Under the pieces are notes generated by a model, which saw only the letters and a list, made by a program, of their open reading frames with translations, was not told the origin of the DNA and did no database searches. A stretch of DNA of 46,245 nucleotides, taken from positions 1 to 46,245 of the forward strand of contig JAUXQB010000245.1 in NCBI GenBank assembly GCA_030685215.1. Direction: 5' to 3'. Numbering within the stretch: position 1 is the first letter of the stretch; each line of letters starts with the position of its first letter. The stretch is from Actinomycetota bacterium. GTDB taxonomy: Bacteria > Actinomycetota > Acidimicrobiia > Acidimicrobiales > Ilumatobacteraceae. This document shows positions 30,481 through 44,473 of this stretch, in pieces. The translations under genes and the position numbers were made by a program.

Positions 30481-31824
30481 ATGAGCGCAACGACGTCTTC
30501 AGCGGGTTCCTCGACGACTCCCGCACCGTCTCCGACGAGTGCATCGACGGGCATGTCGCCGAGCAGCACCGAGGTGTTGGCTGCGACGATCGCCGGTGCC
30601 GTGGAGCGACAGCTCACACAGTACGTGACCGCGATGGCACAGCAGGTGGATGCTGCACGGCAGGCTGTCGAGACCAACAAGCAGGAGCTGCGCGCGGAGT
30701 TCCAGCAGCAGCTCGACTCGGTCACCGCGCAGCTCGCGGCCAGCCGGCAGACGGTGGAGGAGCAGCAGCAGGTGCTGCAGTCCGTGCTCGAGGCGCGCCT
30801 CGGCGACTTCTCCGCTCACCAGCAGCTGCGCCTCAACGAGGTCGAGAACCGGATCCTCGAGGCGGGCGTGAGCGGCAGCTCGATCGACGCCGGCGAGATC
30901 GTCCTGCTGCGCGAGCACATCGACAACCAGAGCGCCGCCGCGCATGCTCGCATCGACGAGCTGCACAAGGCGACGCGTCGCTTCGACGAGCAGGCGTCGG
31001 CGATGGTGCAGCACGTGAACGACACCACGCTCGCACTCAGTCAGCGGATGGACGAAGGCAACCAGGCGCTCGCCGGTGCCGTCGAGGAGCGTCTCGGCTT
31101 CGTGCGCACCACGCTCGAAGCGGTCGGTCCCGAAGTGCAGCGTCAGTTGGCGGAACAGACGCACCTCCTCTCGCAGCGACTCGACTTCACCGAGCACAAG
31201 GTCACCGACCGCATGCTCGCGATGGAGGAGCGTGTCAACGAAGCGAACGGCACCAAGATCGCGCACCTCGAGGCAACGGTTGGTCGCATCGGCGCCGGCT
31301 TCGACGACGCGATCGCTGCGCTCTCGCAGCGGATGCTCGAGCTCGAGAACCGCATGTTCGAGTCGGCCGATCAGCTCGCCGCCCTCGCGGCACAGGTGAG
31401 CACCGTCGACGAGAAGGCGATCAACGCCGTCAAGGAGCAGCTGTCCGCTGCTGTCGGTGAGGCGATGCTCGTCCGCATCGAACTCGATCGCGTGGTCGCC
31501 AGCACCGAGGAGAAGATCGGGAAGAACGCGTTGCGCATGGCCGAGATCGAGGCACTGCTCGCCGACGAGATGGATGTGAGCGCCTCGGTGCAGCTCGAGC
31601 GTCTCGAGGAGCTCGAACGAGCACTCATCGCGCTCGACCCCGACCAGTTCGTGCGCAAGACCGACCCGGGTGTCGGTGGCTCCACGCGCAGCGCGGCGTC
31701 GATGCCGCCGCCTCCCCCGACTCCGGCCGCGGGTACGCCCGCCGTGCCGAGCGCATCACTCAACACCACGCTGCCCGACGGCAGCACGACCAACTCGACG
31801 GAGCCGAGTCTGTCGTCGTTCTGA
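30481..31824 (+). CDS. Long coiled-coil protein at the head of the pilBC operon
   Basis: 447 residues. A Ser/Thr/Pro-rich N-terminus (1-30), then almost continuous heptad-like helix from about 35 to 385, including ELRAEFQQQLDSVTAQL, LREHIDNQSAAAHARIDEL and MEERVNEANGTKIAHLEA, ending in a Pro/Ser/Thr-rich tail. No signal peptide or membrane helix. A good Shine-Dalgarno (AAGGAGG) lies 8 bases before ATG. It is 42 bases upstream of pilB in the same direction, so it is probably a cytoplasmic scaffold or polarity factor for the pilus machine; this is inference, and I know of no named family. Confidence 0.75.
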   Translation: MSATTSSAGSSTTPAPSPTSASTGMSPSSTEVLAATIAGAVERQLTQYVTAMAQQVDAARQAVETNKQELRAEFQQQLDSVTAQLAASRQTVEEQQQVLQSVLEARLGDFSAHQQLRLNEVENRILEAGVSGSSIDAGEIVLLREHIDNQSAAAHARIDELHKATRRFDEQASAMVQHVNDTTLALSQRMDEGNQALAGAVEERLGFVRTTLEAVGPEVQRQLAEQTHLLSQRLDFTEHKVTDRMLAMEERVNEANGTKIAHLEATVGRIGAGFDDAIAALSQRMLELENRMFESADQLAALAAQVSTVDEKAINAVKEQLSAAVGEAMLVRIELDRVVASTEEKIGKNALRMAEIEALLADEMDVSASVQLERLEELERALIALDPDQFVRKTDPGVGGSTRSAASMPPPPPTPAAGTPAVPSASLNTTLPDGSTTNSTEPSLSSF

Positions 31825-31866: not shown

Positions 31867-33606
31867 ATGGCACTCTTCAAAGGTTCGAAAGAAGCGGCAC
31901 CCTCGGCGGTGGAAGGCGAGTCCTCCACGGAATGCATGAAGGTGGGTCAGGCCCTCGTCGAGGGCGGGCACCTCACCGCTGAGCACCTCGCGCAGGCGCT
32001 CGCCCAGGCCAACGGCGACCTGCTGCAGTTCGCCGACATCCTCCTCGGTCGCTACGGCACCGGGCGCACCGAGCTGGCCATCGCCATCTCCGCGGCGACG
32101 GGCGTGCCGGCCGTCGACACCAAGGGCATCGTCATCGCCGACGAGGTGAAGGGTGTGCTCGACGAGGCCGTCGTGCGTCGCCACTGTGCTGTCGCGGTCG
32201 CCGAAGAGGGCGGCACACTGGTCGTGCTGTGCAGCGACCCCGCTCCGGCGCGCCGCGCCGAGCTCGAGGCGGCCGCCAAGCGCCCGGTGAAGTTCTTCAT
32301 CTCCGATCCGTCGACGGTGCGCACCTTCATCGATCTCGTCTACCGCGCCGACGCCGACATCAGTCGCCTCGTCGCCTCGCTGGAGACGACCGACGACCAG
32401 GCGAAGCTGGCGGCCATCGCCGCCGAGGTGAGCCTCGACGACCAGGCGCCCGTCATCCAGCTCGTCAGCCGGATCGTCAGCCAGGCGATGCGCGACCGAG
32501 CCAGCGACATCCACATCGAACCCACCGACGAGCACGTCCGTGTGCGGTTCCGCATCGATGGTCACCTCGTCGAGACCTTCTCGCTGCCGCAGGGGGTGCA
32601 CGCCGCGCTCACCAGCCGCCTGAAGATCATGAGCGGCATGAACATCGTGGAGAAGCGTCGTCCGCAGGACGGCCAGTTCTCCACCGTCATCGACGGTAAA
32701 GAGGTCGACGTGCGCGTGGCCAGCGTGGCCACTGTGTTCGGCGAGAAGATCGTCATGCGAATCCTCGACAAGGGCCGGTCGATGATCGGTCTCGCCGAGT
32801 TGGGGTTCCCTCGCGAGACGTACCTCCACTACTCGAAGATGATCCATGCGCCGTTCGGCATGGTGATCTGCGCCGGCCCGACGGGTGCCGGCAAGACCAC
32901 CACCCTGTACGCGTCGCTGCTCGAGGTGAACTCGGCGGGCAAGAACATCACCACGGTGGAAGACCCCGTGGAGTACGTGTTCCCCGGCATCAACCAGATC
33001 CAGACGAACGACCAGGCGGGCCTCACCTTCGCCACCGGCCTCAAAGCCATCCTGCGTCAGGACCCCGACGTCATCCTCGTCGGTGAGATCCGTGATGCCG
33101 ACACGGCACGCATCGCCGTGCAGTCGGCCCTCACCGGTCACCTCGTGCTGTCGTCCTTGCACGGCACCGACAGCGTGGCCGCACTGCACCGCTTCCTCGA
33201 CATGGGCATCGAAGCCTTCCTCATCGCGTCCTCCGTGGTGGGCGTCATCGGTCAGCGTCTGCTGCGCCGAGTGTGCGACAGCTGCAAGGAGCCGTACACC
33301 CCCGGCGCCGAAGAGCTGGCAGTGTTCCGCCAGAACAGCGGTGGCAGCGAGAAGAGCGTGTTCTACCGCGGCGCCGGCTGCAACTTCTGCGCCGGCACCG
33401 GCTACCGCGACCGCATCGGCGTGTACGAACTGCTGCGCATCACGCCGGAGCTGCGCCGTCTCATCGTCGGTTGGGCAACCACCGAAGAGCTTCGTCGCCT
33501 CGCCGTCGCCCAGGGCATGCGCACCATGCTCCGCGAGGCCATGGCCTTGGTCGAGAACGACGTCACCACCATTCCCGAAGTCGTCCGCACCCTTTTCGCC
33601 AGCTAA
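31867..33606 (+). CDS. pilB: Type IV pilus assembly ATPase PilB
   Basis: 579 residues. N-terminal PilB/GspE domains (about 1-190), then the hexameric motor: SDIHIEPTDEHVRVRFRIDG, Walker A GPTGAGKTTT with Lys343, Asp box region TTVEDPVEY, Walker B DPDVILVGEIRD, His box SSLHGTDSVAAL. The C-terminal tetra-Cys zinc site is present: Cys470, Cys473, Cys505, Cys508. It powers pilin extraction from the membrane and polymerisation at the inner side of the membrane, acting on PilC. GGAG lies 8 bases upstream of the start. pilC follows after 34 bases. Confidence 0.95.
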   Translation: MALFKGSKEAAPSAVEGESSTECMKVGQALVEGGHLTAEHLAQALAQANGDLLQFADILLGRYGTGRTELAIAISAATGVPAVDTKGIVIADEVKGVLDEAVVRRHCAVAVAEEGGTLVVLCSDPAPARRAELEAAAKRPVKFFISDPSTVRTFIDLVYRADADISRLVASLETTDDQAKLAAIAAEVSLDDQAPVIQLVSRIVSQAMRDRASDIHIEPTDEHVRVRFRIDGHLVETFSLPQGVHAALTSRLKIMSGMNIVEKRRPQDGQFSTVIDGKEVDVRVASVATVFGEKIVMRILDKGRSMIGLAELGFPRETYLHYSKMIHAPFGMVICAGPTGAGKTTTLYASLLEVNSAGKNITTVEDPVEYVFPGINQIQTNDQAGLTFATGLKAILRQDPDVILVGEIRDADTARIAVQSALTGHLVLSSLHGTDSVAALHRFLDMGIEAFLIASSVVGVIGQRLLRRVCDSCKEPYTPGAEELAVFRQNSGGSEKSVFYRGAGCNFCAGTGYRDRIGVYELLRITPELRRLIVGWATTEELRRLAVAQGMRTMLREAMALVENDVTTIPEVVRTLFAS

Positions 33607-33640
33607 CCCCACGACACCTTCGCCAGCCAGGAGCACACCA

Positions 33641-34852
33641 ATGCCGAAGTTCGCATACGCAGCCATCGACTCGAACGGAACGAGCGTCGAAGGGTTCACC
33701 AAGGCCGACACCGTCGGTGCTGCCCGCGCGCACCTGCTCGACCAGAACCTGTACCCGGTGAAGATCGAGGAAAAGCGCGGCGCGCTGCAGTTCGAGCTCA
33801 CCACCATGAAGGTGAAGAAGAAGGAGCTGATGCACTTCACGCGTCAGCTCGCCGTGTTCGTCAAGGCCGGCATCCCGCTCACCGAAGCGATGGAAGTGAT
33901 CGGCGACGAGACCACCGACGTGGCGCTGCAACGCACCATCACCGGCATGGTGGAGGATCTCCGCAACGGTGGCACGCTCTCCGGCGCTGCCAGCAAGCAC
34001 CCGGAAGCGTTCCCCGCCTACTACATCGGCATCCTCGGTTCCGCGGAGCTCACCGGCAAGCTCGACGACACGCTCGACAGCCTGGCCGGCTACCTGGAAC
34101 GCGAGGTGGAGACCCGCTCGAAGGTGGTGTCGGCGCTGTCGTACCCGGGTGTCGTCATGGTGCTGGCGATGTTCACGGTGGCCGTGCTCGCCGGCTACGT
34201 GCTGCCCCAGTTCAAGCCGCTGTTCGAAGAGCTCGATGCCGAGCTGCCGTTCGCCACCCGTGCGCTGCTCTTCGTGGCGGACCTGTTCACCGTGATGTGG
34301 TACATCCCGTTCACGTTCATGATGCTCGTCGTCGGCTGGGTGATGTGGATGGTGAAGTCCGAGAAGGGCAAGATCTTCAAGGACAAGTTCGTGCTGAAGG
34401 TGCCCGTCATCAGTGGCATCGTCGAGTACGCGATCCTCGAGCGCTTCTGCCGCATCCTCGGCGCCATGGTGAAGGCCGGCGTGCCGCTGCCCGACGCGAT
34501 GCGCACCACCACCGACGCCACCAACAACGTCGTCTTCCACGATCGTCTGGTGGAGGCACAGGCCGAGATGATGGAAGGTGGCGGCTTCGCGAAGCCGCTC
34601 GCCCGCACCGAACTGTTCCCCGGCGCCGCTCGCCAGATGTTCAAGGTGGGCGAGGAGACGGGAACGCTCGATGCCCAGCTGGAAGTCGCCGGCATGTACT
34701 TCGACCGCGAGCTGGAGAGCCGCATCAAGCGCTTCACCACCATGTTCGAGCCGCTGATGATCGTGTTCGTCGGTCTCATCGTCGGCTTCGTCGCCGTCGC
34801 ACTCGTGCAAGCCATGTACGGCGTGCTCGACGGCGTCAAGCAGCAGGTCTAG
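33641..34852 (+). CDS. pilC: Type IV pilus platform protein PilC
   Basis: 403 residues, GspF/PilC family. N-terminal pseudo-domain (FAYAAIDSNGTSVEG), then two T2SS-F domains, each with the family signature: FTRQLAVFVKAGIPLTEAM and FCRILGAMVKAGVPLPDAM, with GSAELTGKLDDTL and MFKVGEETGTLDAQL at matching places. Three membrane segments. It is the membrane platform that PilB and PilT turn. AGGAG lies 7 bases before ATG 33641. The operon is followed by a long palindrome and an inserted nuclease-like gene in place of the pilD that follows pilC in many loci. Confidence 0.94.
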   Translation: MPKFAYAAIDSNGTSVEGFTKADTVGAARAHLLDQNLYPVKIEEKRGALQFELTTMKVKKKELMHFTRQLAVFVKAGIPLTEAMEVIGDETTDVALQRTITGMVEDLRNGGTLSGAASKHPEAFPAYYIGILGSAELTGKLDDTLDSLAGYLEREVETRSKVVSALSYPGVVMVLAMFTVAVLAGYVLPQFKPLFEELDAELPFATRALLFVADLFTVMWYIPFTFMMLVVGWVMWMVKSEKGKIFKDKFVLKVPVISGIVEYAILERFCRILGAMVKAGVPLPDAMRTTTDATNNVVFHDRLVEAQAEMMEGGGFAKPLARTELFPGAARQMFKVGEETGTLDAQLEVAGMYFDRELESRIKRFTTMFEPLMIVFVGLIVGFVAVALVQAMYGVLDGVKQQV

Positions 34853-36015: not shown

Positions 36016-36780
36016 TCAGCGGACGAGGAGGAAGTCGATGTACTGCTGGCCGAAGAAGATGGCCAGCACGGTGCCCAGCGCGAGGAAGGGTCCGAACGGG
36101 ATGGCGGTCTTGCGGTTGCCGCGGCGAGCGACCAGTAGGGCCACACCCACGACGGCGCCGCAGGCGAACCCGAAGAACAGACCCACCGGTGCGAGTCCGG
36201 GGTTGAGCCAACCGAGGTAGGCGCCCAGCAGCGGCGCGAGGCGCACGTCGCCGTCGCCCATGCCGCCACGGCTGGCCCAGTAGACCACGCCCATCAGTGC
36301 CAGCGAGATGCCGGCGCCGAGGAGCATCATCCACAGTCGTTCCGGTGCTCGCTCGACCAGCGCGGCCACCACGAGGAGTGGGATGCCGACGGCGGCGGTG
36401 CCGTAGATGATCTGGCGCGGCAGTCGCCGAGTGTGCAGGTCGATCCAGCTCAGCGCCACCAGTCCGGCCATCAGGACGCAGTACGCGGGCGTGCGCCACG
36501 ACAGGCCGAAATGCCACGCCGTGAGACCGAAAAGAAGGCCCGTTGACAACTCAAGCACGAGCGGTTCGGTGCCGATATTCGTATGGCACTTTCGGCATCT
36601 GCCACGGAGCGCCAACCAACTGAAGACAGGTACCAGATCGAGGGGGCCGAGGCGCAAGCCGCAGTTCCCGCACGCTGATCCGGGCTGGACGATCGAGGCT
36701 CCACGTGGGACGCGGTCGACCACCACGGTGAGGAACGAACCAATGAGTAGCCCGTAGAGGGCAGAGATCGCAATCGTCAT
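36016..36780 (-). CDS. pilD: Prepilin peptidase / N-methyltransferase PilD
   Basis: 254 residues. N-terminal helix, then the cytoplasmic zinc-type loop with Cys37-x2-Cys40 and a second C-x2-C in GRCRKCH, and two membrane aspartates in SWIDLHTRRLP and GGMGDGDVRLAP (GxGD). It cleaves the leader of type III signal pilins and usually methylates the new N-terminus. The four pilin-like genes further on are its expected substrates. It is divergent from pilT, with 51 bases between starts; the ATG forms a CATATG palindrome at 36778-36783. Confidence 0.94.
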   Translation of the reverse strand: MTIAISALYGLLIGSFLTVVVDRVPRGASIVQPGSACGNCGLRLGPLDLVPVFSWLALRGRCRKCHTNIGTEPLVLELSTGLLFGLTAWHFGLSWRTPAYCVLMAGLVALSWIDLHTRRLPRQIIYGTAAVGIPLLVVAALVERAPERLWMMLLGAGISLALMGVVYWASRGGMGDGDVRLAPLLGAYLGWLNPGLAPVGLFFGFACGAVVGVALLVARRGNRKTAIPFGPFLALGTVLAIFFGQQYIDFLLVR

Positions 36781-36831
36781 ATGCAAGGGCCGGCTCGCAC
36801 GTGCGAGGCGGAGACACCGGAGGCTAGCCCC

Positions 36832-37983
36832 ATGTTCAATCCAGATCCGATGTTGGTCACGCTGCTGCAAGCGACCGTGGCCGCCGGCGCCTCCGACCTC
36901 CACCTCACCGTGGGTCGGCCACCGACGGCTCGCCGCGACGGCGTGCTCGTGCCCTTCGAAGGCGTCAGCCTGTTGAAGCCGGAGGAGACGGAGCGGATGG
37001 TCATGTCGCTCCTCGCCGACCACCACAAGGCAGAGCTCGCCGAGAACTCGCAGGTCGACTTCTCGTTCGGACTCGAGTCGATCGGTCGTTTCCGTGCGAA
37101 CGCCTTCATGCAACGCACGAGCCTCGCGCTTGCCTTGCGCGTCATTCCGTTCCGCGTGCGCACGCTGGAAGAGCTGGGCACGCCCTGGGCCTGTGGCGAG
37201 CTGCTCAACCGTCCCTACGGTCTGGTGCTGGTGGTGGGTCCCACCGGTTCCGGTAAGAGCACCACGCTCGCGGCGATGATCGACCGCATCAACGAGACCA
37301 AGCCGCTGCACATCCTCACCATCGAGGACCCGATCGAATACCTGCACCACCACAAGGTGGCGATGGTCAACCAACGTGAGGTCGGCACCGACGTGACCGG
37401 CTTCACCGAAGGTCTCCGCAGTGCACTGCGTGAAGACCCCGACGTCATCCTCCTCGGTGAAATGCGCGACCTCGACTCGATCGCGATCACGCTGACGCTG
37501 GCCGAGACCGGTCACCTCGTGTTCGCCACGTTGCACACCAACGACGCGTCGCAGGCCCTCGACCGCATCATCGACGTGTTCCCCGCCGAGCGTCGCGACC
37601 AGATCCAGATCATGCTCGCCGGCACCCTGCAGGGCGTGGTCAGCCAGCGCCTGCTCCCCGCCGAGGGCGGTGGCCGCGTGGCCGCGTACGAGGTGCTGAT
37701 GGCCAACGAGGCCGTCAAGAACCTGGTGCGCGAGGGCAAGAGCCGACAGCTGCGCAACACGATGATCAGCGGTCAGCAGGAAGGCATGCAGACCATGGAG
37801 ATGGACCTCGCCCGCCTCGTGTCGAGTGGCATCATCAGCTTCGAGACCGCTGCCGAGATCAGCCAGTACCCGAAAGAGATCCTGGCGCAGGCCGCCACCT
37901 ACCGCTCGCAGATGCAGGCGCAGGCGACGATCGACGCCGGTCAGGCCGCCACCACTGGCGCCGGCACCTACGTGAACGTCTGA
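36832..37983 (+). CDS. pilT: Type IV pilus retraction ATPase PilT
   Basis: 383 residues. GASDLHLTVGRPP at the N-terminus, Walker A GPTGSGKSTT with Lys142, Asp box TIEDPIEYLHHHK, Walker B DPDVILLGEMRDLDS and His box ATLHTNDASQALDRI. It powers pilus retraction, giving twitching, uptake or surface sensing. ATG 36832 is preferred to ATG 36781: GGAGG is 8 bases upstream and the protein then starts like other PilT proteins. A DUF429-like gene follows after 16 bases. Confidence 0.94.
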   Translation: MFNPDPMLVTLLQATVAAGASDLHLTVGRPPTARRDGVLVPFEGVSLLKPEETERMVMSLLADHHKAELAENSQVDFSFGLESIGRFRANAFMQRTSLALALRVIPFRVRTLEELGTPWACGELLNRPYGLVLVVGPTGSGKSTTLAAMIDRINETKPLHILTIEDPIEYLHHHKVAMVNQREVGTDVTGFTEGLRSALREDPDVILLGEMRDLDSIAITLTLAETGHLVFATLHTNDASQALDRIIDVFPAERRDQIQIMLAGTLQGVVSQRLLPAEGGGRVAAYEVLMANEAVKNLVREGKSRQLRNTMISGQQEGMQTMEMDLARLVSSGIISFETAAEISQYPKEILAQAATYRSQMQAQATIDAGQAATTGAGTYVNV

Positions 37984-39225: not shown

Positions 39226-40665
39226 CTATGCGACCGAGATCTCCCAGGAGTTCACGACGTACTCGCCGTAGTCGTTGATCTGCACGACGGCGGTCGACAC
39301 GACGCGGGGTGAGCCGGCGGTGGTGCTCGACACGACCTTGAAGGTCTTCTGCACCACGCGGTTGACGATGCCCAGCTGCAGCGTCTCGGGCTGATCGGGT
39401 GTCTGCGCCCAGTAAGCCGCGAGCACGCCGCCGACCATCTGCACGTTCTTGTTCACGGCCGCGCCCGGCGTGATGGCGATGTTGATGTAGCCCTGCGGCA
39501 CCGCGATGTACCCGGGGATCCACAGCGTGGCCGTGGTGCCGGTGGTGAAGCTGACATCGATGATCGCCGGGTACGGCGTTGCCACCGCGTCGGTGACCAG
39601 TGTCGACGGCTGGTACTGGTCGACCATGGCCTGCACCGGCGGCGTGGCCGAGTTGGTGGAGCGAGGCACGAAGAGCTGTCCGGGCAGGTTGAAGTCGATT
39701 GCCGACCCGCCGCCGTCGACGCCGTTCACCGACATGATCGACACGCTGCGCGACGAGAGCGACGCGATGTCGGTGTCGGCCACGAGGCGGGCGTTGAACT
39801 GCAGGCTGGGCCCGGCGCCGGCGACCGTGTCGTTGAACGCCAGCCGCCCCGCCCCGCCGAAGATCCACGTGGCTCCGTAGCCGGAGATGTTGTGGTTGGT
39901 GGGAGCGCCGAGTGCTTCGAACGCTGCTTCCTGATCGGTGGTGCACGCTTCGACCGAGCCGCCGCCGACGACGACGTTGGCGCTGCCGGAGATGGTGACC
40001 GTGTTGTCGAAGTAGTAGATGCCGCTGGCGAAGAACACCGGCTCCGAACCGGTGATGGTGATCGGGTCGTTGTACGTGCCCGGGAAGAACACTCGGCAGC
40101 TCCCCACCCACGCCGGCATGGCGTAGCCCGCCGACGACGGGTGCGTCAGCGCGTGGGCCGGCAGCGTCGGGAGCAGGATCTTGTCGCCCTGGCTGACCGA
40201 CGTGGTGTCGGCCACCCACGCGGTGGGGTCGGCACCACCGGAACCGGCGTACACGCTGCCGACGGTGCCCACGGGCGCAGGTGCCCCCACGTAGGTGGTG
40301 GTCATCGCCGCGCGCAGTTCCGAGCTGTCGAGCTCGAGTGCGTACTTGACGGTGGTGCACTGGGTGGTCACGCCGATGTCGAGGCCGGGGCTGGCGAGCG
40401 TGACAGGCTCGTTGAGGCCGCTCAGCGAGCAGGCGTCGTAGAGCAGGTGCGGATCGGCCATCGCCGTGCGGAACGCACCCTTCACGGCTTCGGCGCGAAC
40501 GATCTTGTCCTGCTGGCTGGAACCGGCGCGGGTGACCGCGACGGCGTACTGCATCATCGGCGTGATGAACAGCGCGCCGATCAGGATGAACGCCAGCACG
40601 ATGACGAGTGAGGAACCGTCGTCGGTGCCCGCCCGAGGGCGGCGAGGTGTGGGTCGGCGCCTCAC
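39226..40665 (-). CDS. PilX-like pilus protein with a beta-helix-like body
   Basis: 479 residues. A prepilin-like N-terminus (DDGSSLVIVLAFILIGALFITPMM): a basic leader, Gly17, then a hydrophobic helix, but no Glu at position +5 of the mature chain, as in some minor or PilX-type pilins. The body is rich in short beta strands (ITITGSEPVFFASGIYYFDNTVTISGSANVVVGGG), suggesting a right-handed beta-helix. The GTG start overlaps the stop of the VWA pilin gene by four bases (GTGA), so the two are co-translated. Likely a minor pilin or pilus-associated surface protein. Confidence 0.75.
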   Translation of the reverse strand: MRRRPTPRRPRAGTDDGSSLVIVLAFILIGALFITPMMQYAVAVTRAGSSQQDKIVRAEAVKGAFRTAMADPHLLYDACSLSGLNEPVTLASPGLDIGVTTQCTTVKYALELDSSELRAAMTTTYVGAPAPVGTVGSVYAGSGGADPTAWVADTTSVSQGDKILLPTLPAHALTHPSSAGYAMPAWVGSCRVFFPGTYNDPITITGSEPVFFASGIYYFDNTVTISGSANVVVGGGSVEACTTDQEAAFEALGAPTNHNISGYGATWIFGGAGRLAFNDTVAGAGPSLQFNARLVADTDIASLSSRSVSIMSVNGVDGGGSAIDFNLPGQLFVPRSTNSATPPVQAMVDQYQPSTLVTDAVATPYPAIIDVSFTTGTTATLWIPGYIAVPQGYINIAITPGAAVNKNVQMVGGVLAAYWAQTPDQPETLQLGIVNRVVQKTFKVVSSTTAGSPRVVSTAVVQINDYGEYVVNSWEISVA

Positions 40666-43460
40666 GTGAGTGCCACCTGCTGGACGCACGAGATGGCCGT
40701 GTTGGGAGCCACCGTCAGCGTGATCTTCGACCACGGCGAGTCGGGGATGGGCGTGACCACGAACGGGTAGTCGGCGCCCGCCGACTTGCAGGACCAGCTC
40801 ACCGGCGTGTACTTGGTGAGGCCCGACAGGTTCAGCGGGGTGATGTCGGCCGTCACGCTGACGCCACCGCTGAGGTCGAAGTCGAACGTGCCGCTGCGGT
40901 ACTGCGCACTGGTGGTGGCGATGGTGAGGTCGGCCGAGTTCTGGTAGGTGAACGGGTCGGCGGCCGATGCGGAACCGACCTTGGTCTGCACGGTCACCGT
41001 GCCGCCACACTCCGCGAGCGCCATCGAGTTCAGGGCGCCGGCGAACTGGTCCCAGTTGGGGAGGATGTACATGTCAGCCACGGCGGCGTTCGTGTACGGG
41101 CCCCCGCTGGGCACGGCCGGCACGGTGGCACCTTCCGACACGATCTGCGACAGGATCTCGGTGTTCGGTCGGCTGTAGCTGGTGGCGCTCTCGTGGAACG
41201 TGTACGGCTGGTCGTAGACCTTGTTCGAGCTCCAGCCGTCGCTGTTGTCGGCGGTGCTGTTGTTGCTGTTGTACAGCGCCTCGGTGGTGATTTCCCACGA
41301 CGAATACGGCGAGCTGTAGATGTTGTTCACCCGGTAGCCGTCGGTGTCGTCGGGGGTGGTGTTGCCCGAGTTGTAGGTCGACTGGTTGATGCTGGCCCAC
41401 GAGCTGTACGGCGGGTTCAGCTGCACGGTGCCGCGCCAGCCGTCGGTCTCGTCGTTGGTGGTGTTGTTGTCGGCGAACAGTGCTTCGGTGGTGTTCTCCC
41501 ACAGGCTGTACGGCGCCGAGTAGCTGGTGGCAGTGCGGTAGCCGTCGCTGCTGTCACCGGAGGTGTTGTTGAGGTTGTAGTAGTCCTCGGTCGTCTGGGT
41601 CCAGTTGCCGAGCGAACCGGTGGTGGTGCGGAAGCCGTCGGTCTGGCCGGCAACCGTGTTGCTCGCGTCGTAGAGCGCCTTGGTCGTGTTGGTCCAGCTG
41701 CCGAGCGAACCCGTCGTGGTGCGGTAGCCGTCGGTCTGGCCGGCAACGCTGTTCGACCGCTCGTAGTACGTGCGCGACTCGGAGGTCCAGCTGCCGAGCG
41801 TGCCGGTGACCCGCACGCGGTAGTTGTCGCTCTCGCCGACGACGGTGTTGTTGCTGTTGTAGGTGCTGCGGCTCACCGAGCTCCACGTGCTGCCACTCTT
41901 GCGCTCGTAGGTGAGGCCGCTCGCCGCGTACTGGTACGTGACGCCGCTGTTGGCGCGCTGGTAGGTGAGGCCGCTGGCGGCGTACTCCCAGGTGGGCCGG
42001 TAGCCGCGCTGCGGGTTGTCGACGTGGAAGCCGATGTCCCAGGTCTGGTGGTAGCCACGCTGGAAGTCGGCGAGGTGGTAGCCGGCGCCCTGCTCACGCC
42101 AGGTCGACGTGCCGTTCACGTCGGTGCCCACGTACACACCGATGAAGCGCTCCACGTCGGCGTAGTAGTCGCGAGCGATGCGCCACGCACGGTTCCAGGC
42201 CACCTGGTTGTAGCTGCTGCCGGTGGCTGCCGGCAGTCCGCTGTCGTCGTTGTCCGCCACGGCCGGGGCAGTGGCCGAGCTGGCGTTGAGGCGGCTGTAG
42301 CTGGGCATACCGTCCGTGAAGAAGATGAGCGTGTCGGGCAGCGTCGGCTGCACCGTGCCGTCGCTGTTCTTGAACACGCGGAACATCGCGTCTTCCCAGT
42401 TCGTCGCGCCGGAAGAGGTGAGCGTGGCCACCTGTGCCTTCAGGTCTGCGACGTCGCTCTCCACGAGCATGTCGTAGTAGCGCGACCAGCCGGCGCCGGC
42501 GCCGAGGGTGACCGCCGTGCTGGAGAAGCGGACGATCTCGAGCTTGATGGGGGTGCCGGCGAACGAGTCGATGAACGCGGTGATACCGGTGCGCACGCTG
42601 GCCATGTTCGTGCTGCCGATGGAGCCGGAGGTGTCGACGGCCATCACGAAGTTGCCGCCGCAGCGCGAGCGAGTGGCGCCGAAGCTGGGCGGGTTGCTGA
42701 AGTTGCTGGTGCTCAGATCGCTCTCGCGGTCGGTGCCACCGGCGGTGAGCGTGATGGTGTCCTCACCACCACCGGCACCGTCGACGTCGCCACCACCGTT
42801 GATGGTGACCGACACTCGGCGACCGTTCTTCGTGTAGTAGGTGGGGTCCGACGGCACGGTGTCCTCGGGGCCGCCATCGGGGATGGCCGGGTCGAGGGCC
42901 AAGCGCACCACGATCACCCACACCGGCGAGGTGACGCCGGGTTCCCAGGTCTGCCCGGGCGGCGGTGCCGGCACGTCGTGCAGCACCACGCCCTCGTTGC
43001 ACGTGGGGGCGCCACTGCCGACCTTCACGCACGCGACGCGGAGGATCTGCCACTCGTCGCCCACCTGCACGTAGCGGTAGGAGACGGTGGTGAGCGTGGC
43101 GACGGGCTCGGTGCCGCCGGAGACCCAGCCGGTCCACGAGAGCATCAGTGCGTTGGAGCCACCGACGTTGATGCCGGGCGGGCACTCGGTGCCGCACGGC
43201 GAAGCGCCGGGCGACGTGTCGACGTCCTCCGCCGACGCGAGGTCGCTGGGCAACCAGATGCCCACGTTCTGCTCGGAGCGAGCGTTGTTGAGACGGCCCT
43301 CGCTGTTGTCCTGCTGCTTGAGGATCACCGAGGTGGCAGCCACCAGCGAGGTGAGGAGCGTGCCCATGATCACCATCGTGATCAGCACTTCCGGAAGGGT
43401 CATGCCGTCGTCGAGCCGGGCGGTCGCCCGTCGGCGAAGGCGTTGCAGGTGCTTCGTCAT
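40662..43460 (-). CDS. Large minor pilin with a VWA module carrying inserted tandem repeats
   Basis: 932 residues. Basic leader, cleavage at Gly19/Met20, Glu24 at +5 and hydrophobic helix (MTLPEVLITMVIMGTLL): a type III prepilin signal. About 270-470: VWA module with a complete metal site, DTSGS from Asp276, Thr353 and Asp383 (FFTDG). After strand FIGVYVG the chain leaves the fold: a GYH/GYR...TY(Q/E)R segment (about 465-520), then seven ~33-residue repeats (523-751), before returning to a VWA-like last helix (WDQFAGALNSMAL) and a C-terminal beta domain. S. sanguinis PilB is a precedent for a pilin with a VWA module; PilY1 uses VWA at pilus tips elsewhere. Role: probable tip adhesin. ATG 43460 is chosen for GAGG 6 bases upstream. 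Confidence 0.85.
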   Translation of the reverse strand: MTKHLQRLRRRATARLDDGMTLPEVLITMVIMGTLLTSLVAATSVILKQQDNSEGRLNNARSEQNVGIWLPSDLASAEDVDTSPGASPCGTECPPGINVGGSNALMLSWTGWVSGGTEPVATLTTVSYRYVQVGDEWQILRVACVKVGSGAPTCNEGVVLHDVPAPPPGQTWEPGVTSPVWVIVVRLALDPAIPDGGPEDTVPSDPTYYTKNGRRVSVTINGGGDVDGAGGGEDTITLTAGGTDRESDLSTSNFSNPPSFGATRSRCGGNFVMAVDTSGSIGSTNMASVRTGITAFIDSFAGTPIKLEIVRFSSTAVTLGAGAGWSRYYDMLVESDVADLKAQVATLTSSGATNWEDAMFRVFKNSDGTVQPTLPDTLIFFTDGMPSYSRLNASSATAPAVADNDDSGLPAATGSSYNQVAWNRAWRIARDYYADVERFIGVYVGTDVNGTSTWREQGAGYHLADFQRGYHQTWDIGFHVDNPQRGYRPTWEYAASGLTYQRANSGVTYQYAASGLTYERKSGSTWSSVSRSTYNSNNTVVGESDNYRVRVTGTLGSWTSESRTYYERSNSVAGQTDGYRTTTGSLGSWTNTTKALYDASNTVAGQTDGFRTTTGSLGNWTQTTEDYYNLNNTSGDSSDGYRTATSYSAPYSLWENTTEALFADNNTTNDETDGWRGTVQLNPPYSSWASINQSTYNSGNTTPDDTDGYRVNNIYSSPYSSWEITTEALYNSNNSTADNSDGWSSNKVYDQPYTFHESATSYSRPNTEILSQIVSEGATVPAVPSGGPYTNAAVADMYILPNWDQFAGALNSMALAECGGTVTVQTKVGSASAADPFTYQNSADLTIATTSAQYRSGTFDFDLSGGVSVTADITPLNLSGLTKYTPVSWSCKSAGADYPFVVTPIPDSPWSKITLTVAPNTAISCVQQVALT
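41208..41894 (-). repeat. Seven protein-coding tandem repeats of 30-34 codons
   Basis: Each unit has a W, a Y about 9 residues on, an N(N/S)(T/S) and a DGYR/DGWR/DNYR ending (for example NTVAGQTDGYR, NTTPDDTDGYR, NSTADNSDGW). The first units start GSLGSW, the later ones PYSSW, so they fall into two subfamilies; an eighth, decayed unit (PYTFHESATSYSR) follows. The pattern suggests a rod of stacked small beta domains. Confidence 0.85.
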
Positions 43461-43476
43461 CGTGAACCTCATTCCG

Positions 43477-43956
43477 TCAGATGTTGCTCTTGACCACCTG
43501 GACGGACCGCGAGATGCGGCCGTCCGGGCTGGTCACCGTGATGTTGACTCGTTGCACGAGGCCGTCGCTGTAGCCCCCTGCGGGGCATGCGCCGGTCTGC
43601 CACGTGCCGGCCGTGGTGGCAGTGGCGCCGGGGGTGTACCAGGCGTAGTTCACCGACACCTGGCTCTCCGACCAGCCCTCGGCCTGCACTGCGGCCTCGT
43701 AGTAGATGGTGTAGTCGCAGCCCTCGGTGGCGCGGTTCACGCGGTCGGCGGCGTTGCTGAGCACGGTCTCGACACGAGTGGCGTTGCGGTTGAACGACGA
43801 GTTCTTGACGAGCGAGAGTGCCGCCACCATCAGCGGGATCATCGCCAGGCCCATCAGCGTGACGGTCACGACCATCTCCACCAAACTGAAGCCGCCGTCG
43901 CGGCGCGCAGGAACTGCATCCGCCGTCTCGTCGACTTGATCCACGCGCCGTTTCAT
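43477..43956 (-). CDS. Minor pilin (type III prepilin signal)
   Basis: 159 residues. Leader of 22 residues ending GG, cleavage before Phe23, then FSLVEMVVTVTLMGLAMIPLM with Glu at +5. The globular part has two cysteines (GCDYTIYY and TGACPAGG) that may form the pilin disulfide loop. The size and place, just before the VWA pilin gene with a 16-base gap, suit a member of the pilus-tip complex (PilV/PilI-like). ATG 43956 gives a normal short leader; an upstream in-frame start at 44028 would make it unusually long. Confidence 0.85.
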   Translation of the reverse strand: MKRRVDQVDETADAVPARRDGGFSLVEMVVTVTLMGLAMIPLMVAALSLVKNSSFNRNATRVETVLSNAADRVNRATEGCDYTIYYEAAVQAEGWSESQVSVNYAWYTPGATATTAGTWQTGACPAGGYSDGLVQRVNITVTSPDGRISRSVQVVKSNI

Positions 43957-44057
43957 CTCGCCCACTCCCGCTTCTGACGTACCTAGGTGCGTATCGACAA
44001 TTCTCCGTGTGACCTTGAGGAAAGTCACTTCAAGAGTTCCTCATTTCGAAAACGCAG

Positions 44058-44125: not shown

Positions 44126-44473
44126 TCAGGTGGTCACGGCTCCTGCGCATGCGCCGCCGGCAGTGGCGGTCACGCTGATGCCGTCGGAGCCGATGTCGTA
44201 CGTGCTCGACTCGCCGCGGAGCAGCTCGCCGCTCACCAGCAGAGCCTCGGTGGCCGTACCGGCCGCGCCGCCGTTGGCGTAATAGGTCTCGACAGCCACT
44301 TCCAGGACCTTTGCGTCCGCGGCGCACGCCGAGTCCTGGCCCTTGTCGGCGATGCCACGCACGGCGAACACCGTGACAGTGGCGAGGATGCCGAGGATGA
44401 CGATGACGATGAGCAGTTCCACCAAAGTGAAGCCACGCTCGGTCTTCTGCGTCTCTACGATTTCATTTTCCAT
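44126..44473 (-). CDS. pilA: Type IV pilin (main pilin, PilA-like)
   Basis: 115 residues. Leader MENEIVETQKTERG, cleavage before Phe15, mature FTLVELLIVIVILGILATV with Glu at +5: a textbook type IVa pilin N-terminus. The short globular part has two cysteines (DSACAADAK and GGACAG). It is the expected main subunit of the fibre made by PilB/C/D. The Shine-Dalgarno GGGAGG lies about 12 bases before ATG, and a terminator follows the gene. Confidence 0.92.
   Translation of the reverse strand: MENEIVETQKTERGFTLVELLIVIVILGILATVTVFAVRGIADKGQDSACAADAKVLEVAVETYYANGGAAGTATEALLVSGELLRGESSTYDIGSDGISVTATAGGACAGAVTT

Follow-up and report, generated by a model that had tools for sequence, protein, structure and literature searches.

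VWA pilins and VWA domains with inserted arms are already known. Collagen-binding integrin I domains have an extra element, the alphaC helix, in the betaE-alpha6 loop near the metal site (MIDAS), and PilY1, which carries a beta-propeller, is a protein of its own. The VWA pilin PilB of S. sanguinis is described in PMC8179133 as a bimodular protein that has been modeled at the pilus tip and whose metal site is needed for twitching. Its modules are joined by a nine-residue linker, and it has two small arms, one of which is a four-stranded sheet. In the pilus-tip adhesins RrgA, GBS104, and Mfa5 (PMC7835359 and PMC7893114), ARM1 is inserted in strand C, and ARM2 follows the fourth strand and precedes the fourth helix. 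Finally, according to PMC8201768, Periscope proteins (such as SasG, Rib, and Sgo_0707) use a rod of highly similar folded domains to carry a ligand domain outward.

We analyzed a 46,245-nucleotide stretch of the genome of an uncultured acidimicrobial actinobacterium of the family Ilumatobacteraceae (the window), in which an ORF on the minus strand encodes a VWA modular prepilin of 936 aa (40665..43472, or 40662-43472 with the stop). This length is counted from the first ATG; the original prediction for this gene began at the second ATG (43460), and its residue numbers are 4 lower. A search of the same genome with this VWA-pilin gave one match only. The protein is probably a minor pilin of modular build, belonging to a type IVa pilus, with a VWA domain split by an out-and-back rod, and it likely acts as the tip adhesin.

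The window protein shares with PilB an N-terminal pilin module, a VWA domain with an intact MIDAS, protrusions beside the MIDAS, and a monoderm host, and the tip location modeled for PilB would extend this likeness. Unlike PilB, however, the window protein is not bimodular, because its VWA domain bears an inserted rod of repeats and is followed by a C-terminal beta domain (residues 825-936). As in RrgA, GBS104, and Mfa5, the VWA domain has an inserted element beside the MIDAS, and a place at the pilus tip would be a further common feature. The pili of these adhesins are not type IV, and their arms are compact and lie in other loops (the arms of PilB are likewise compact), whereas the rod here consists of variable repeats and sits one strand later than ARM2, after betaE, and is thus not an ARM2 insert. 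It lies in the same loop as the alphaC element of collagen-binding integrin I domains, which, unlike the rod, is a single short helix.

The number of repeats in the rod also varies, with 5, 7, 8, or 9 found within the genus, between species rather than strains. In Periscope proteins, repeat number sets the length of the surface-adhesin rod, and copy number here would set reach in the same manner. Unlike the domain chains of those proteins, the repeats examined here have diverged from one another, the rod is inserted in a VWA domain, and there are seemingly two coupled arrays. Among the matches listed from the open-access PMC literature, none reported a VWA domain with a repeat or out-and-back rod in the betaE loop, and none reported two unlike arrays coupled in number. 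Although its parts have precedents, the rod may be a new building principle.

The N-terminal region carries the prepilin signal that had been predicted. The class III leader (residues 1-23; 43404..43472, minus strand), with cleavage predicted after G23, between DDG and MTLPE, is supported by TIGR02532 (21.2 bits versus a cutoff of 16.3) and by conservation; Pfam N_methyl gave 18.1 bits, which is below its cutoff of 21.2. D21, the Gly at position -1 (G23), and the Glu at position +5 (E28) are invariant in 41/41 rows that have a residue there, in a 42-row alignment that includes the window. An AlphaFold model of the window protein built with 42 sequences (mean pLDDT 82, pTM 0.56) gives the domain order as leader, pilin module, Gly-rich stretch, VWA domain with inserted rod, and C-terminal beta domain. 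The pilin module (residues 24-190; 42903..43403, minus strand) has a long N-terminal helix (26-80) and beta strands (83-191), to which the extra module is added. Both the signal and this arrangement are those of a modular type IV pilin, and the sequence thus points to a modular minor pilin with a predicted place in the pilus.

The joint between the pilin module and the VWA domain, a nine-residue loop in PilB, corresponds here to residues 191-268 (42669..42902, minus strand), a Gly-rich stretch of low confidence (ten-residue pLDDT means 35-51) with two weak strands. In the model, these strands (218-225 and 237-244) may belong to the pilin module, leaving the remainder as linker. The C-terminal beta domain (40665..41000, minus strand), seen in the AlphaFold model and the alignment, has two conserved cysteines, C895 and C929. 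A 961-codon open frame runs antisense across the entire gene (40608-43493, plus strand) and is very likely a coincidence of GC-rich DNA.

Relatives were drawn from genomes of the same family, giving 53 distinct proteins (that of the window included) in which the front of the VWA domain and the C-terminal part are both present. The gene is present in 14/15 genomes of the genus; there was no match in G011 (63% complete), and a broken copy in G005 was not scored. In that copy (L045:6522-10039), the coding sequence is spread over two open frames that overlap (553 and 832 codons), which reflects either a frameshift or an assembly error. The insert analysis was conducted without this two-frame gene, without L093 (which overlaps L068), and without genes in which the two halves are not both present (L054/L067, L057, L062/L075, one gene of L078, and L089).

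The VWA domain of the window protein is interrupted. Its front (residues 269-454; 42111..42668, minus strand), delimited by Pfam, AlphaFold, structural alignment, and conservation, runs from betaA to betaE and includes C271 and the MIDAS residues D280, S282, S284, T357, and D387. Its rear (residues 759-824; 41001..41198, minus strand), for which AlphaFold, structural alignment, and conservation agree, comprises alpha6 (770-778), betaF (801-804), alpha7 (807-822), and C822. The metal site had been described as intact on the basis of Asp276, Thr353, and Asp383, which are D280, T357, and D387 in the present numbering. This description proved correct and can be extended to S282 and S284, since the complete DxSxS, Thr, and Asp set is present within a VWA fold and is invariant in 42/42 aligned sequences (window included); metal binding itself is predicted. 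C271 and C822 flank the entire VWA domain and are also invariant in 42/42 sequences. The A1 and A3 domains of vWF have a terminal disulfide, which a C271-C822 disulfide, if formed, would resemble.

The Pfam VWA profile (PF00092) matches with 25.5 bits versus a cutoff of 23.8, but covers only profile positions 3-120 of 174 and stops at residue 395, as expected if the domain is interrupted. The early stop could also mean that the VWA domain simply ends there and that the repeats are an ordinary stalk leading to a separate C-terminal domain. We consider this reading very improbable on the following evidence. In the AlphaFold model, the insert begins after betaE (442-448), which is preceded by a helix (423-435), and it ends before the last VWA helix (807-822). 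The stretch from betaE to the VWA rear is 21-74 aa long in 22/53 distinct proteins and 110-625 aa long in the other 31 (window included), and in the short-loop relatives betaE, alpha6, betaF, and alpha7 align in one run, with the flanking halves continuous. Furthermore, VIA-align placed residues 266-823 of the model on S. sanguinis PilB 7b7p (Z 18.8, 206 residues, 3.3 Å; Z 18.8 and 19.1 for 7B7P and 7BA2, respectively), residues 271-823 on 4fx5 (Z 20.2), and similar spans on Mfa5 (Z 18.9) and integrin I domains. Among the 50 PDB matches listed (Z 17.5-20.2), for which first and last residues only are given, the last aligned model residue is at least 817 in all 50. The invariant pair C271 and C822 also argues against an early end.

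Because the short-loop relatives are continuous and the model VWA domain aligns with solved VWA domains across the gap, we conclude that the repeats interrupt this domain and that the rod is inserted within the VWA fold itself. The AlphaFold model and the structural alignments rule out a VWA domain that ends before residue 470, and the proposal of a modular pilin with a VWA fold split by a rod of repeats is supported by the model, the alignments, and the relatives alike.

The rod contains two repeat arrays. The array originally predicted, seven repeats of ~33 residues between a late VWA strand and the final helix, was recovered through HMM units, AlphaFold, structural alignment, and the short-loop relatives. 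These seven long repeats (residues 529-758; 41199..41888, minus strand) have 31-34 aa each and a strand-helix-strand fold, according to HMM units and AlphaFold, and their autocorrelation is best at 34, 31, and 68. A second array, absent from the earlier description, precedes them. It consists of seven mini-units of 8-9 aa (GYHLADFQR, GYHQTWDI, GFHVDNPQR, GYRPTWEY, AASGLTYQR, ANSGVTYQY, and AASGLTYER) at residues 464-524 (41901..42083, minus strand), as found by sequence, AlphaFold, and a tokeniser. The two arrays are separated by the rod tip turn KSGS (residues 525-528; 41889..41900, minus strand; assigned by sequence), and a tip motif resembling [YFWH][EQ]...[GS][STNR].W is present in 20/31 long inserts.

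In the AlphaFold model, the outbound array forms a near-unbroken strand of ~70 residues (E455-461, E464-507, and E511-526), and the rod (451-770) has a pLDDT of 85-95 in 26/32 ten-residue blocks, with a minimum of 71. The most likely form of the insert is a rod that runs out and back, with each outgoing mini-unit paired with one returning repeat. This idea was first drawn from the sequences, and the AlphaFold model then agreed. The suggestion of a repeat stalk growing out of the VWA domain was thus right about the place of insertion, but the structure is not a simple stalk; it seemingly runs out and back and has a second, matched array.

This rod architecture is derived from one model with a pTM of 0.56. 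A second AlphaFold model, made for the L063 relative with 6-aa mini-units, resolved the VWA domain, the start of the outgoing strand, and the final two repeats. Residues 457-489, 524-643, and 645-722, however, fell below a pLDDT of 50, and the middle was mostly at 25-45. With one good model and another that failed mid-rod, it is conceivable that AlphaFold drew the long strand erroneously because the sequence is repetitive, and that the repeats in fact form a loose tandem array. We judge this improbable, since the mini-units follow the long repeats in both number and type order (see below), a pattern that is independent of the model.

In Pfam and PHROGs, the rod repeat matched no family over the cutoff (best E 0.13 and 0.074, respectively), and NCBIfam and the PDB sequences gave no match; the rod sequence also had no match in phage and plasmid records at E 0.01. 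The possibility that the repeat belongs to a known family was therefore rejected; neither this outcome nor an early VWA end, the two that would have refuted the original prediction, was observed. Structural comparisons with solved and viral structures gave lists filled by VWA matches, and thus the rod fold was masked. Some relatives use other units. In L039 and L051/L063, near-perfect 6-aa repeats (SFHYQR) take the place of most 8-9-aa mini-units in the outbound segment, and the long repeats are mostly 30-31 aa. The longest inserts, those of L061 and L070 (487 and 625 aa), have different repeats, with YHYTYTH-like units going out and GYSASDPSWAISAKQ-like units returning, which suggests the same plan built from different units.

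We then compared the two arrays within the genus. Long repeats were typed as P-type (ending P[YF].) or G-type, and mini-units as H-type (GYH..) or A-type (AASGLTY..), using motif classes and regular expressions that were defined after the sequences had been inspected. By the tokeniser, the number of mini-units equals the number of long repeats in 13/13 complete genes of the genus, with counts per gene of 5, 5, 5, 5, 7, 7, 7, 7, 8, 8, 8, 8, and 9. When type order is read from base to tip, the arrays match at 88/89 positions in the antiparallel arrangement versus 24/89 in the parallel one, and shuffling types within proteins gives a mean of 50.5 and a maximum of 70 (n = 10,000). Counting each distinct pattern once leaves 42/43 antiparallel and 14/43 parallel matches, and 0/100,000 shuffles were as good. 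The types come in blocks, which weakens this as a test of register: the value of 88/89 mainly tests orientation and block lengths, and only L046 tests the finer order.

Proteins with more long repeats have longer outbound segments (Spearman 0.87, 21 strictly scored proteins), and the relationship persists in tree-corrected contrasts (r 0.87; 20 contrasts, 10 non-zero). For 19/21 scored proteins, the outbound length is at most 4 residues from 13+9N, the exceptions being L046 and L077. The 21 proteins are those of the 31 with long inserts that passed a contiguity and score filter, which dropped L039, L047, L048, L051, L052, L058, L059, L061, L070, and L076. The type test used 20 rows, with L077 left out due to the absence of its start motif.

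On the genus tree, array composition changed at least 5 times and total number at least 4 times (two nodes have support of ~0.65), and therefore the match between the arrays is not a single inherited accident. In this tree, L031 was entered as 4+3, as its long repeats indicate; one of its mini-units had been assigned to the A-type by the tokeniser. In L042, long units 6 and 8 are identical at 97/102 bases, which marks a recent duplication. Judged by these sequences, the two unlike arrays of the gene seem to have grown and shrunk jointly in the course of evolution. On balance, we lean toward a new way of building a rod of variable length, in which N short units form a near-uninterrupted strand and close, one by one and in matching type, onto N longer repeats unrelated to them. 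The arrays would gain and lose copies in step, giving a pilus-tip probe whose reach evolves in ~3-nm steps from the VWA metal face.

The one-to-one rule weakens outside the genus. As a rule for the whole family it was rejected, since L046, L039, L061, and L070 break it. In L046, from another genus, the tokeniser counted 8 mini-units versus 10 repeats, and the first seven types, which alternate, are in register. Counts made by eye are also unequal in L039 (12 mini-units versus 7 repeats), L061 (~9 versus 10), and L070 (~11 versus 14). They are equal in the 860-aa gene of L044 and in L053 (5 to 5), in the two-unit relatives (the 576-aa gene of L044, L055, and L066; 2 to 2), and in L051 (9 to 9, with mostly 6-aa units). 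Across the 20 rows read by the tokeniser, 13 have equal counts; of the other seven, five (both L044 genes, L053, L055, and L066) are equal by eye only, L056 is ambiguous, and L046 is unequal. Tandem repeats in metagenome assemblies may have been miscounted.

The genes surrounding the VWA-pilin are consistent with a type IV pilus. Upstream is a minor prepilin of 183 aa (43477..44028, minus strand; PF07963, 24 bits versus a cutoff of 21.2) that is conserved near the VWA-pilin. Downstream is a PilX/GspK-like protein without Glu5, of about 478 aa (39226..40665, minus strand; start approximate), assigned from its position and N-terminal sequence; it had no match in Pfam or NCBIfam. Beyond the minor prepilin lies a major-pilin-like protein of 115 aa (44126..44473, minus strand; PF07963, 36.8 bits). 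The window also encodes a prepilin peptidase (PilD; 36016..36825, minus strand, start approximate; PF06750 and PF01478), a PilB-type assembly ATPase (31867..33606, plus strand; PF00437 and PF05157, with the best NCBIfam models below their cutoffs), the PilC/GspF platform protein (PF00482) within an ORF at 33083..34852 on the plus strand whose true start is inside, near 33.6 kb, and a PilT retraction ATPase (36781..37983, plus strand; TIGR01420, 446.2 bits versus a cutoff of 319.1). Directly before PilB is a coiled-coil-looking protein (30481-31824, plus strand), which has a match beside PilB in L040 (69% identity).

The trio of minor prepilin, VWA-pilin, and PilX-like protein is present in 20/20 loci from L031 to L050 (in L050, the best minor-pilin match is by a second VWA gene) and in 34/40 named loci (L094-L133), with the other six at contig ends. 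The named loci mostly overlap L031-L092 and were used for gene order and taxonomy only. The trio also occurs in loci without a match to the window PilA and in loci with a rodless VWA domain. A secretin was found in 0/12 genomes with a control search positive in 6/14, which agrees with the apparently monoderm nature originally ascribed to this organism. PilM_2 (PF11104) was found in 0/4 genomes (G000 and three of the same genus), even though the window encodes PilB, PilC, PilT, and PilD; its control was positive in 9/14.

The gene order here is similar to that of PilY1 with the minor pilins PilV, PilW, and PilX. In both cases, a VWA domain works with a set of minor pilins, but here it is fused to a pilin. 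Pfam found no PF05567 match in the VWA-pilin, which has a prepilin signal instead, and the protein thus differs from PilY1 in both features. A search for PilY1 matched 0/12 genomes, although its controls were equally silent. It is plausible that the VWA-pilin stands in place of PilY1.

The 40 named loci with the gene are assigned to Acidimicrobiaceae, Acidimicrobiales, Ilumatobacter or Ilumatobacteraceae, Actinomycetes, and Actinomycetota. Matches to the rod sequence at E 1e-5 occurred in 6/395 genomes of a class sample and 3/396 genomes of a phylum sample (own genome included), all from the same family. In several genera of the family (L044, L050, L068, L077, L078, and L082), there are two or three VWA-pilin genes per stretch, and L044, L068, and L077 have rod-bearing as well as rodless genes. 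Interchangeable tip cassettes have been proposed for Myxococcus Kil pili (PMC12075869), and by analogy, multiple VWA-pilin genes could possibly be such cassettes.

Regarding function, the protein would enter the pilus by way of its pilin module, together with the two neighboring minor pilins and most likely at the tip, as S. sanguinis PilB is modeled at the pilus tip. The chain would then exit the loop after betaE, run outward through N mini-units (8-9 aa each) in a single long strand, turn at the tip loop, and come back as N beta-alpha-beta repeats of ~33 aa, each pairing antiparallel with one mini-unit, before finishing the VWA fold. With such unit-by-unit pairing, rod length would depend on both arrays, which would have to change in concert. 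A seven-unit strand of 61-72 residues would measure ~20-24 nm at full extension (calculated with 0.33 nm/residue). In VWA folds, the loop after betaE sits on the metal side of the sheet, and the rod would thus be the outermost contact, with the metal site at its base. The rod would be more exposed than anything else at the pilus tip and, along with the VWA metal face, would be the first to touch a surface, another cell, or a polymer. Its reach would be tuned by repeat number, and retraction by PilT would put the bond under tension.

The rod may instead be the binding surface itself, an aromatic-rich ladder for polysaccharide or another polymer, with the VWA domain merely its mount. Trp, Tyr, or Phe recurs in most units of both arrays, and rodless relatives keep the VWA domain and its metal site, such that the rod may add a separate specificity. 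However, the metal site is invariant in 42/42 sequences with or without a rod, which argues that the VWA domain still works, and profile searches matched no carbohydrate-binding family. We regard this possibility as doubtful but deserving of attention. The force sensor raised in the original prediction seems less likely still. Here, the rod would act as a lever by which tension at the tip reaches alpha6 and alpha7, switches the VWA domain as in integrin I domains, and signals through the pilus. The rod does enter and leave between betaE and alpha6 in the AlphaFold model, PilT is encoded nearby, and the P. aeruginosa PilY1 VWA domain is reportedly connected with surface sensing (PMC8806160 and PMC9210963); yet both ends of the rod are on the same loop, so that pulling need not shift alpha7. 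We continue to favor a tip adhesin with a paired, out-and-back rod that has the VWA metal face at its base.

The coupled arrays provide a clear and testable example of joint evolution between two unlike repeats. Furthermore, the natural length series in this family, from 2 to ~10 units along with the short-loop relatives, bears on the role of reach at the pilus tip of a monoderm bacterium.
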